Below are positions 45,807-49,115 of a stretch of DNA of 64,000 nt, piece by piece (within the stretch, counting starts at the first letter, position 1; every line of letters begins with the position of its first letter). Both the position numbers and the translations under genes were made by a program. This DNA comes from Thermoanaerobaculia bacterium (lineage in GTDB: Bacteria; Acidobacteriota; Thermoanaerobaculia; Multivoradales; J023), in assembly GCA_030431255.1 (NCBI GenBank), contig JAUIJL010000020.1, positions 124,001-188,000 on the forward strand, given 5' to 3'. The notes beneath the pieces are model-generated. The model searched no databases. It was given only the letters and a program-made list of their open reading frames with translations, and had not been told where the DNA came from.

Positions 45807-46862
45807 GTGTCGACCTCGCCCCCACCTTCCGCGCCGCAGCTGAAGAAACAGCTTTTGCGTCAAGCGGTTGAGGACAACCTGATGACCCGGGCCGGCGAGC
45901 CTGGGGCCCGATCCTCGATCGGCCGAGCGCGAGCACCGGGACGGTCTGCCGCCAAGGCTCCTTGGCTCTCCCTCGGCCTGTGGTTGGCCCCGCTAGCGAT
46001 CGTCGCCCTCATCCTGCCGATGGTACGTTCGGAGCTCGCCGACCACGACGCCACCTCCCAAGCAGAAATCGGTATCGTGCTGCCCGAGCTGCCCGCCGAA
46101 AGCGCATCCGGTTCCGGGCCACAACCGGCGGTCTTTGCCGCGCCCGAGCCCTTCGACCCCTCGGCTATTCCCCTGGCGGTCCGGCGCATCGTCGTGGATC
46201 CGGGCCACGGCGGGCCCGACGACGGCACCACCGGCTTCGGGTTGGACGAAAAAAGCATGACGCTCGACATCGCCCACCGGCTCCAGGATCGGTTGGAGGC
46301 GGACGGTTTCGAGGTCTACCTGACCCGCGAGGACGATCGCACCGTATCCCTGCGAGAACGGGCCCAAACCGCCAACGACCTGCGGGCGGATCTCTTCATT
46401 TCCATCCACATCAACTGGATTGCCGAGCGCTCGGTCCGCGGGCTGGAAACCTATTTTCTCGGCGCCACCGACGACCCCGAGCTCAACGAGCTGGCGCGGC
46501 GGGAAAACCGCGACTCCGGATATTCGCTGGCCGATATGAAGAGCCTCTTGGAGTCGATCTACACCGGTGTTCGACAAGACGAGAGCCGACAGCTGGCGAC
46601 AAGGATCCAAAGATCACTATACTCTTCACTACTGCGTCAAAACCCTGATTTGAAGAATCGGGGGGTCAAAACGGCCCCGTTCGTGGTATTAGTAGCCACC
46701 GAAATGCCGGCCATACTCGCCGAGGTCTCGTGCCTGTCGAATCAGCAAGAGGCCCAGCTTTTGTCGCGTCCGCTGTATCGGGAGCACATCGCCGAGGCGT
46801 TGTCCCGAGGAATTCGAGCATATGCCGACGAAGTCAACCAATCTGAAGCGAAAGGGAGCTGA
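45807..46862 (+). CDS. N-acetylmuramoyl-L-alanine amidase (Amidase_3) with N-terminal membrane anchor
   Basis: Zinc enzyme cutting the bond between MurNAc and the stem peptide, as in cell separation or sporulation. 351 residues from GTG 45807 (an internal ATG at 45882 is an alternative). One membrane helix lies near residues 52-70 (LSLGLWLAPLAIVALILPMV), and the catalytic domain is periplasmic: RIVVDPGHGGPDDGTTG (zinc His), LDEKSMTLDIAHRL (zinc Glu region), FEVYLTREDDR, LFISIHINW (zinc His) and the catalytic glutamate in PAILAEVSCLSN. No AMIN or SPOR domain is seen. Only 3 bp separate it from the MamK-like actin gene, implying a two-gene operon linking a filament to cell-wall cutting. Confidence 0.92.
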   Translation: MSTSPPPSAPQLKKQLLRQAVEDNLMTRAGEPGARSSIGRARAPGRSAAKAPWLSLGLWLAPLAIVALILPMVRSELADHDATSQAEIGIVLPELPAESASGSGPQPAVFAAPEPFDPSAIPLAVRRIVVDPGHGGPDDGTTGFGLDEKSMTLDIAHRLQDRLEADGFEVYLTREDDRTVSLRERAQTANDLRADLFISIHINWIAERSVRGLETYFLGATDDPELNELARRENRDSGYSLADMKSLLESIYTGVRQDESRQLATRIQRSLYSSLLRQNPDLKNRGVKTAPFVVLVATEMPAILAEVSCLSNQQEAQLLSRPLYREHIAEALSRGIRAYADEVNQSEAKGS

Positions 46863-46865
46863 CAG

Positions 46866-47894
46866 ATGAGCGATAGCAACGTCATCAACGTGGGAGTCGA
46901 CCTGGGGACGTCCCGGAGTGTGGTCTCCGCTTCCAACGGTCAACGCCACGTGGTGGAGAGCTACGTCGGCTGGCCGGTGGATATGGTCGCCCGCAAGGTC
47001 TTGAAAAGAGACATGCTGGTCGGCGAAGACGCGGTGAAGAATCGCACCATGGTCGATCTCCACCGTCCATTGGAGCGAGGCCTGATCAAAGAGGGCTCGG
47101 AGAAGGATCTTTCCGCCGTCCGCGCCTTGCTCGAGCACCTGCTCCAGCTGGCGGTGGGCGAGACGAAGAAAGGGCAAAAGAGACCCACCGTTCGCGCGGT
47201 GGTCGGGGTGCCCGCGGCGGCCATGCGGGTCAACAAACAGCAGCTGGCTAAAGTCCTCGAAGGCACGGTCGACGCGCTGATGATCGTCTCCGAGCCCTTC
47301 GCCGTCGCTTATGGGCTCGACGCGCTGCTCCACAGCTTGGTGGTCGACAGCGGCGCAGGCACCACCGACTTCTGCTTGATGCGCGGCCGCTTCCCCACCG
47401 AGGACGATCAAAAGACCTTGACCAAAGCCGGCGACTCCATCGACGAGCACTTGCTCAAGCTTTTCAGCGAGAAACATCCCGAGGCCAAAGTTTCCATCTA
47501 CATGGCCCGGGAGTGGAAAGAGAAGCACGGCTTCGTGGGCAAGGCCCAGGGCAAAGTCGAGGTGACCGCACCGGTGGACGGTCGGCCGACCCAATTCGAC
47601 ATCACCGACATGCTGCGTGCTTCCTGTGAGTCGATTCTGGAGCCGATCACCGAGGCGATGCTCGACCTCTTGCCGCGCATCGAAGCCGAGTTCCAGGAAG
47701 ATGTGCGCAACAACATCATCTTCTCCGGCGGCACCTCGTTGCTGCCCGGGCTGCGGCCGGCGCTCGAGGAGGCCCTGAAAGACCTCGGCGGCGGCAAGAT
47801 CCGCGCAGTCAAAGATCCTGTGTTCTGCGGCGCCGACGGGGGTCTCGCCATCGCTCTGGACGCGCCGGATTCCGATTGGGACAAGCTCAGCTGA
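46866..47894 (+). CDS. Actin-like ATPase, MamK-like
   Basis: 342-residue filament-forming type protein of the actin/Hsp70 ATPase superfamily. Phosphate-1 motif GVDLGTSRSVVSA (residues 10-22), connect region VRAVVGVPAAAMRVNKQQL, VSEPFAVAYGLD, phosphate-2 VVDSGAGTTDFCLM and adenosine motif FSGGTSLLPGL. The segment EDQKTLTKAGDSIDEHL and the motif order are, from memory, close to the magnetosome actin MamK and unlike MreB (no DIGGGTTE) or FtsA. No other magnetosome (mam) gene is seen. It starts 3 bp after the amidase stop (GGGAG upstream). Probably a cytoskeletal protein of a MamK-related group used for something other than magnetosomes. tyrA follows 63 bp on. Confidence 0.82.
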   Translation: MSDSNVINVGVDLGTSRSVVSASNGQRHVVESYVGWPVDMVARKVLKRDMLVGEDAVKNRTMVDLHRPLERGLIKEGSEKDLSAVRALLEHLLQLAVGETKKGQKRPTVRAVVGVPAAAMRVNKQQLAKVLEGTVDALMIVSEPFAVAYGLDALLHSLVVDSGAGTTDFCLMRGRFPTEDDQKTLTKAGDSIDEHLLKLFSEKHPEAKVSIYMAREWKEKHGFVGKAQGKVEVTAPVDGRPTQFDITDMLRASCESILEPITEAMLDLLPRIEAEFQEDVRNNIIFSGGTSLLPGLRPALEEALKDLGGGKIRAVKDPVFCGADGGLAIALDAPDSDWDKLS

Positions 47895-47957: not shown

Positions 47958-49115
47958 ATGGCCCAAGAAAGGGATCAGACCTCGGAAGACGGCGCCGAAG
48001 ACGCTCAGCAAATCGCTGAGAAGCTCTCTCGCCTGCGGGATCAAATCGCCGAGGTCGACCGCTCTCTGATCGAGCTACTGCATCGCCGCATGGAGCTGGC
48101 CGAGGAAGTCGGCCGGGTTAAATTCGACTCCGGCCGACCGATTCTGGTGCCCGAGGTCCACGATCGGGTGCTGATCCGAGCCCGCCAGCACGCGGAAGCC
48201 TGCGGCGTGTCCGAGGACGTCATGGAGTCGATCTTCGACGCCGTCATGCGCGGCTCCGTGGAACGGCAGCATCGCCTCGGGGTCACCCTCAAGGCCACCG
48301 GCGGCAGTCGGGTGCTGATCATCGGCGGCGCCGGCAGCATGGGTCAGTGGTTGCAGAGCTTTGCCCAACGCCTGGGCCACGGGGTCGACATCGTCGATCC
48401 CTCCATGGCTTATCTGCCTCGGGCAGAGGGACGTTTCGGCTCCTTGGACGACCTCGAGCATCTCGACGACTACCAAGCCATCTGGGTTTCCGTGCCCCTG
48501 GGTCGCATGCCCGATGCTTTGACCCAAATCATCGATCGGCGTCCCAAGGGCTTGGTGATCGAAATCGCCTCGATCAAGGATCACCTACGGCCGGTCTTCG
48601 AGCATGCGGACGAGCTCGGCGTACGGGTCGCGTCCCTGCATCCGATGTTCGGTCCGTCAAAGTCGGTCTACGAGACCCTGACCTTCGTGCTCGCTTGCCG
48701 CAACGATCCCCAGGAAGAAAAAGTCGCCATCGAAACCTGGTTACGCCACCCCTACACCCACCTGGTGCCCGTGCAATTCGATCACCATGATCGACTCATG
48801 GGTTGGCTCTTGGGATTGGCCCACCTCTCCGGCATGCTCTTCGGCTGCGCCCTCACCCGCTCCGGCCTCGCGATCTCAGAGCTCGAGGCGTGCGCCTCCA
48901 CCACCTACAATCGCCAAGCGTCCACCGCGGCGTCGGTGCTCGAAGAAGACCCCGACCTCTACTACGACATTCAACAGCTCAATCCGCACCGGGGCGAGGT
49001 CTACAAAGCCGCCCGGGCGGCCCTCGACGAGCTCATCGACGCGGTCCAGGAAAACGACCGCGAAGAATTCCGTCACGTGCTCTCCGACGCCCGCCACCTC
49101 ATGGCCGACCGTTAG
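47958..49115 (+). CDS. tyrA: Bifunctional chorismate mutase / prephenate dehydrogenase
   Basis: 385 residues joining two steps of tyrosine synthesis. The chorismate mutase (AroQ type, about residues 15-100) shows LRDQIAEVDRSLIELLHRRMELAEEVGRVK. The prephenate dehydrogenase part has an NAD fold at VLIIGGAGSMGQWLQSFAQ, then ASIKDHL, ASLHPMFGPS (catalytic histidine region), VQFDHHDRLMGWLLGLAHLS and a dimerisation region. The fusion order matches the E. coli T-protein. Its last 17 bp overlap the 3' end of the convergent histidine kinase gene. Weak linkage to the amidase-actin pair (63-bp gap). Confidence 0.94.
   Translation: MAQERDQTSEDGAEDAQQIAEKLSRLRDQIAEVDRSLIELLHRRMELAEEVGRVKFDSGRPILVPEVHDRVLIRARQHAEACGVSEDVMESIFDAVMRGSVERQHRLGVTLKATGGSRVLIIGGAGSMGQWLQSFAQRLGHGVDIVDPSMAYLPRAEGRFGSLDDLEHLDDYQAIWVSVPLGRMPDALTQIIDRRPKGLVIEIASIKDHLRPVFEHADELGVRVASLHPMFGPSKSVYETLTFVLACRNDPQEEKVAIETWLRHPYTHLVPVQFDHHDRLMGWLLGLAHLSGMLFGCALTRSGLAISELEACASTTYNRQASTAASVLEEDPDLYYDIQQLNPHRGEVYKAARAALDELIDAVQENDREEFRHVLSDARHLMADR

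Follow-up and report, generated by a model that had tools for sequence, protein, structure and literature searches.

A MamK-class actin gene paired with a gene for a tailed cell-wall amidase in Thermoanaerobaculia

Gene content of the locus

The window, by which we mean the whole stretch of 64,000 nucleotides that was analysed, contains a two-gene, operon-like module in which an amidase gene is followed by a gene for an actin of the MamK class (Table 1). The upstream gene had gone unmentioned in the original prediction, which dealt with the actin.

Table 1. Features of the amidase-actin module in the window
Feature	Coordinates	Strand	Remarks
Amidase_3 gene, 351 aa; predicted topology: tail in the cytoplasm, a single TM helix, amidase domain in the periplasm	45807..46862	+	GTG start; PF01520, AF2
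Residues 13-30 of the tail (KKQLLRQAVEDNLMTRAG), conserved; candidate motif for actin binding	45843..45896	+	conservation; predicted helix 9-28
Single TM helix, residues 54-73	45966..46025	+	hydropathy and AF2 helix
Amidase_3 catalytic domain, residues 128-337	46188..46817	+	PF01520; H134, E148, H201, E306 invariant
MamK-class actin, 342 aa	46866..47894	+	ATG start; 3 nt after the amidase stop

The catalytic domain of the amidase is recovered by PF01520 with an E-value of 6.2e-51 and a score of 173.3 bits, passing the cut-off of 27 bits, and no Pfam domain other than Amidase_3 was found in the protein. Its AF2 model (mean pLDDT 83.0) has the AmiA, AmiC and AmiB proteins of E. coli among its nearest folds. 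The four catalytic-domain residues listed in Table 1, which we take to be the zinc and catalytic ligands of the enzyme, are conserved in 59 of 59 amidases. The predicted membrane-spanning segment is marked by a hydropathy peak of 2.22 at residues 55-73 and by an AF2 helix whose pLDDT is only about 53-70. On the 3' side of the actin, at 47958-49115, lies a gene that combines a chorismate mutase domain with one of prephenate dehydrogenase. This order recurs in L007-L011, the closest kin of the window, and with the window counted it is present at 6 of the 65 loci.

Affinities of the actin

The ATPase motifs quoted in the original prediction are all present in the translation of the actin gene, the single departure being a phrase given there as EDQKTLTKAGDSIDEHL, which in the actual protein reads EDDQKTLTKAGDSIDEHL. 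Among NCBIfam models the best match is MamK (NF040964; 9.2e-111), with a score of 370.1 bits that lies below the curated cut-off of 400 bits. The second-best model, BeeR, gives 193.7 bits against a cut-off of 530, and the MreB models give 66.3, 50.9 and 49.8 bits against cut-offs of 293, 365.75 and 515 respectively, all of them falling short; the looser cut-off of the Pfam MreB_Mbl model is passed (74.5 against 27 bits). A sequence search of the PDB ranked MamK first at 250.8 bits, then BeeR at 136, Arp2 at about 45 and MreB at 42.8. The protein is 38% identical to MamK and 32.5% identical to BeeR, and it is less close both to BeeR and to the MreB encoded in its own genome than to MamK. The canonical MreB is the product of a separate gene (L001, 490 bits) in this genome of 10.19 Mb (98.83% complete), in which the window actin is present as a single copy. 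BeeR is described in its paper as carrying an N-terminal extension of 30-50 residues (PMC11929497); this trait is absent from the window actin, in which the model match begins at residue 8.

Profile scores rule out membership of the FtsA and DnaK families, and the Alp7A_like_C model reaches 15.4 bits against a cut-off of 22. The actin family FcmB, newly described from filamentous cyanobacteria, was also considered and set aside, since its own paper relates it to AlfA (PMC12645912). Seven plasmid records and four phage records gave matches to the window actin, all of them only 23.7-28.1% identical, and six of the seven plasmid matches are annotated as rod-shape or MreB proteins.

Structural comparisons agree with the profiles. 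The AF2 model of the actin (mean pLDDT 93.5, pTM 0.89) finds as its top match the MamK filament 5ljv (Z 43.2, rmsd 1.5 over 325 residues), followed by BeeR at Z 40.5 and MreB at Z of about 34.

A constant amidase partner

We compared 65 loci with distinct actins and found the amidase gene directly upstream of the actin, on the same strand, in 64; the remaining locus (L037) starts at a contig end. The gap between the two genes has a median of 4 nt, is at most 20 nt in 53 of the 64 pairs and amounts to -4 nt in ten, while in five it is 67-222 nt, given a rule-based choice of starts. No other gene consistently accompanies the pair among the 65 loci. Clusters of neighbouring ORFs that are clear of the pair cover 12 loci at most, and the four clusters that span 26-63 loci consist mostly of shadow ORFs lying on the pair itself (144 of 158, 41 of 66, 28 of 42 and 26 of 26), their remaining ORFs having been chained in by the clustering. 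ORFs that looked like amidase-actin fusions (L045, L024 and L030) proved to have as their upstream part another frame read through the amidase, the actin having its own start.

In these amidases the single hydrophobic helix comes after a tail of some 35-60 residues, or more in sequences whose start codon is uncertain. The tail carries the motif [KR]xx[LIMV][LIVF]xxA[VI]x[ED]N, or a close variant of it, at all 61 readable N-termini, of which 59 were recognised by pattern and two (L059 and L089) by inspection; L009, L024 and L038, in which a contig end truncates the N-terminus, stand outside the count. The variant in L059 is KALREAVAEN, and L089 retains the tail, its frameshifted amidase being described in pieces. 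This amidase, of genome G237, is split by the frameshift at about 8389-9490 of L089, with the tail and the actin kept, through either assembly error or decay. In an alignment of 38 amidases N24 is the sole invariant residue outside the catalytic domain. Selection of the 59 amidases in the conservation table relied on a pattern with N as its last position, which in part builds in the N seen in 59 of 59; the unselected count for the motif is the 61 of 61. Codons vary synonymously at the conserved tail positions N24, A20 and K13, which suggests that the constraint acts on the protein. The AF2 helix in the tail has a pLDDT of about 70-86. The tail could bind a partner other than the actin, or could serve topology or turnover.

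Phyletic distribution and joint presence

In 396 genomes drawn evenly from the window's phylum, with a threshold of more than 340 bits, a MamK-class match was detected in 41. They comprise all 23 genomes of the window's order (among them those of its own genus and family), 15 of 24 from other orders of its class and only 3 of 349 from the rest of the phylum (G037, G196 and G237). The closest public records are mostly metagenome-assembled genomes of Acidobacteriota and Thermoanaerobaculia. As the actin is missing from most of the drawn genomes of the phylum, it is not generally needed there.

Two sets of Acidobacteriota genomes (25 and 80) were searched with a tailed-amidase model, counting as tailed any match that starts at model position 1-6. 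All 13 actin-positive genomes (6 in the first set and 7 in the second) have the tailed form, the amidase of G237 being recovered in two pieces because of its frameshift. It is found in none of the 92 actin-negative genomes (19 and 73), which include incomplete assemblies. Nine of the 92 belong to the same class and six to genus g60, the others being mostly one per family; eleven gave no match to the model at 1e-30. Direct reading of the sequence ahead of the catalytic site showed no tail motif in 18 actin-negative amidases (in a nineteenth, G007, the site is unreadable), nor in four more whose matches start earliest or are similar (those of G023, G376, G062 and G028, the match of G023 starting at model position 18); the remaining actin-negative amidases of the 80-genome set were assigned by match position alone. 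The second amidases of five actin-positive genomes are likewise devoid of the motif, save for a chance-like match in L131.

In genus g60 the actin occurs in 2 of the 10 genomes of the phylum draw (G037 and G196), and the six others that were tested (G085, G113, G122, G180, G250 and G258) have no tailed amidase, a pattern that suggests transfer or loss of the module as a unit. This patchiness outside the order, together with the variability of the genes beyond the pair, would suit a mobile or conflict-type cassette, acting for example in controlled lysis and having no housekeeping role. We regard such a cassette as highly improbable, given that the actin is present in every drawn genome of the window's order, as expected of a core gene, and that no third gene travels with the pair.

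A second phylum and other contexts of MamK-class actins

Four of the loci (L022, L031, L038 and L044) carried the names of other phyla. L031 lies in genome G397, and among 297 genomes drawn from the phylum of that genome 242 had some match and 11 had one over the MamK cut-off; from this pattern of matches we infer that the phylum differs from that of the window. The amidase-actin module occurs in this second phylum in L031 and in genome G595, and G595 is the only one of the 12 second-phylum loci fetched to have a relative of the amidase beside the actin.

Three amidase-linked actins pass the MamK cut-off, namely those of G196 (415 bits), G037 (408 bits) and G595 (422 bits), and visual inspection of the ORFs surrounding them (loci L048, L049 and L193, respectively) revealed no magnetosome gene. 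Automatic naming will thus label some amidase-linked actins MamK in genomes without magnetosome context.

The other contexts are of several kinds. In G613 the actin has MamA-, MamB- and MamP/MamT-like neighbours and in G408 MamB- and MamE-like ones, all below the model cut-offs (MamA in G613 at 192.3 of 200 bits); by context we consider both loci to be of the magnetosome type, and the locus of G445 resembles that of G408 by its ORFs. L195 and L186 are magnetosome-type loci that hold a MamK-class actin. The second-phylum loci of this type that were examined lack the amidase module. Tandem MamK-class actins, scoring 376-494 bits, were observed in G548, G598 and G643 (L185 8708-11373, L188 8881-11734 and L189 8736-11545), with no nearby amidase by BLAST and no magnetosome gene among the few neighbours scanned; the pair of G548 flanks a 160-residue ORF that combines a hydrophobic stretch at the N-terminus with coiled-coil-like sequence. 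In four genomes (L190 9745-13088, L191 6907-10214, L192 4785-8128 and L196 169-3334) a charged, coiled-coil-like ORF of 117 residues and an ORF of 603-663 residues precede the actin, and neither type of ORF, as represented in L190, has a Pfam match.

Phylogeny of the actins

A tree of 54 rows was built, comprising 35 amidase-linked actins (34 of the 63 complete rows, the window included, and G595), 5 from magnetosome contexts, 10 from other contexts, BeeR and 3 MreBs. All 35 amidase-linked actins fall into a single clade (96/99; recovered in 99% of 200 bootstrap trees), and together with the MamKs they group to the exclusion of BeeR and MreB (99/92). The amidase-linked clade was recovered in all three trees that hold second-phylum rows, with an SH-aLRT value that is unstable (0 without BeeR and G613, 99 without MreB), and there is no firm branching order within the joint group of MamKs and amidase-linked actins. 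A single clade of the five magnetosome-context rows is rejected (p-AU 0.002), with long branches in play. The tree thus neither favours nor opposes the idea in the original prediction that magnetosome actins derive from this class. An earlier tree of 68 rows, from which L037 and L043 were excluded as incomplete, also placed BeeR outside (94/92), and the single MamK in it was not placeable.

Profiles, fold and tree thus uphold the proposal that the actin is closer to MamK than to MreB: in the searches that had been suggested, the NCBIfam MreB models stay below their cut-offs, the tree excludes MreB and the modelled structure matches the MamK filament best. An MreB identity is ruled out by the profile scores and the tree. 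Judged from its sequence, the window ORF is a member of a MamK-related class of its own.

Search for a magnetosome context

The source genome was searched with MamQ and MamP, the two mam models that were informative for it. The best MamQ match scores 94.5 against a cut-off of 250 bits and the best MamP match 27.9 against 300, so that none passes; we read both as the level expected of LemA and PDZ domains. The magnetochrome model PF18509 had no match in this genome or anywhere else, and hence was not counted. A magnetosome cluster elsewhere in the genome is accordingly ruled out as far as MamQ and MamP are concerned, and the expectation that the actin lacks a magnetosome context holds at this level too.

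The original prediction had coupled its MamK-related class with a general job in organising cells or organelles. The class stands, and the organelle-organising job finds no support, the sole constant partner of the actin being a cell-wall amidase. A form of this idea in which the actin organises an organelle or vesicle in the manner of MamK, the amidase being merely a co-transcribed neighbour, could draw on MamK as the closest characterised family and on the magnetosome-type loci of L195 and L186. Such a role appears improbable in view of the sub-threshold MamQ and MamP scores, and of an only constant neighbour whose tailed form is present or absent together with the actin.

A proposed role in positioning wall hydrolysis

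The constant operon-like adjacency, the joint presence and absence, the conserved tail and the conserved active sites lead us to propose that a cytoplasmic MamK-class filament probably binds the tail of the amidase and positions peptidoglycan hydrolysis, by analogy with bactofilin and LmdC. The first gene would supply a bitopic N-acetylmuramoyl-L-alanine amidase with a predicted topology of short cytoplasmic tail, TM helix and periplasmic catalytic domain, and the second an actin that would polymerise with ATP in the cytoplasm. The helix of the tail would bind the filament, which would in turn determine where hydrolysis takes place, be it the septum or some other site of growth; the division site as the target is a guess drawn from the kin of the amidase.

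The residues of the actin are compatible with such a filament. The nucleotide-site positions D12, G14, T15, D161, G163, G165, T166 and D168 are kept in 64 of 64 amidase-linked actins and E143 in 63 of 64. Seven further positions (R67, G77, V85, R121, R128, W217 and P260) are at least 95% conserved among the amidase-linked actins, whereas of the 15 other MamK-class actins no more than one shares any given position; they are candidates for the site that would bind the tail. The two proteins could also be co-transcribed without touching.

The tail, the TM helix and the adjacency would fit equally well if the direction were reversed, with the amidase tail acting as a membrane anchor or regulator of the filament, or with the filament switching amidase activity across the membrane. 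RodZ and MreC are membrane anchors or regulators of this kind for MreB. We consider the reversed direction rather unlikely, as the retention of all four active-site residues throughout the 59 amidases speaks against a mere anchor. In its favour, the binding of LmdC in R. rubrum also affects the placement of BacA (PMC10945521).

If the filament does position the amidase through its tail, the actin-amidase pair would join the bactofilin-endopeptidase pair as a case of a cytoplasmic polymer steering wall hydrolysis. The data suggest that MamK-class actins may position wall hydrolases too, beyond magnetosomes, and for the job of these actins outside magnetotactic bacteria one lineage now offers a concrete, testable partner, a peptidoglycan amidase whose cytoplasmic segment is nearly invariant. 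More tentatively, and with some doubt on our part, MamK-class actins could be seen as a cytoskeletal class that extends over two phyla or more. One of its main lineages would be dedicated to a transmembrane cell-wall amidase, for which it would act as track or scaffold, and the alignment of magnetosomes would then be one specialisation of a class that tethers membrane proteins via short cytoplasmic tails.

Comparison with known systems

In the open-licence literature searched we found no joint mention of MamK with an amidase or of MamK with Acidobacteriota, and texts that combine Thermoanaerobaculia with actin appear to concern other topics. With MamK itself (NF040964; PDB 5ljv and 5jyg) the window actin shares profile, fold, position in the tree and nucleotide-site residues; it differs in having no magnetosome genes found by the MamQ and MamP searches, in its regular amidase partner, and in belonging to a separate clade of unstable support with a score of 370 of 400 bits. 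BeeR of Verrucomicrobiota (PDB 8r2n), the second-best model and fold, is presented in its paper as a MamK relative of non-magnetotactic bacteria that polymerises and whose function is not known (PMC11929497). Unlike the window actin it branches outside the group of MamKs and amidase-linked actins (99/92) and bears its N-terminal extension.

The nearest parallel for the proposed mechanism is the BacA-LmdC system. Its paper reports that the LmdC of H. neptunium, a bitopic peptidase, binds bactofilin in vitro through its cytoplasmic N-terminus, that the two genes overlap in a putative bicistronic operon, and that in R. rubrum the localisation of LmdC depends on bactofilin (PMC10945521). Both systems have a bitopic wall hydrolase with a short cytoplasmic N-terminus in operon-like pairing with a polymer gene. 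They differ in that the polymer is bactofilin and not actin, the hydrolase (an M23 peptidase) is an endopeptidase and not an amidase, and the LmdC tail is a beta-hairpin whereas a helical tail is predicted here; we claim no homology between them. With AmiA, AmiB and AmiC the window amidase has in common the fold of the catalytic domain and the conserved active-site residues, but it is predicted to be TM-anchored behind a conserved cytoplasmic tail. Taken against these systems, the module presents an actin class that is already known, in a regular partnership with an amidase that is new to the open-licence literature searched.
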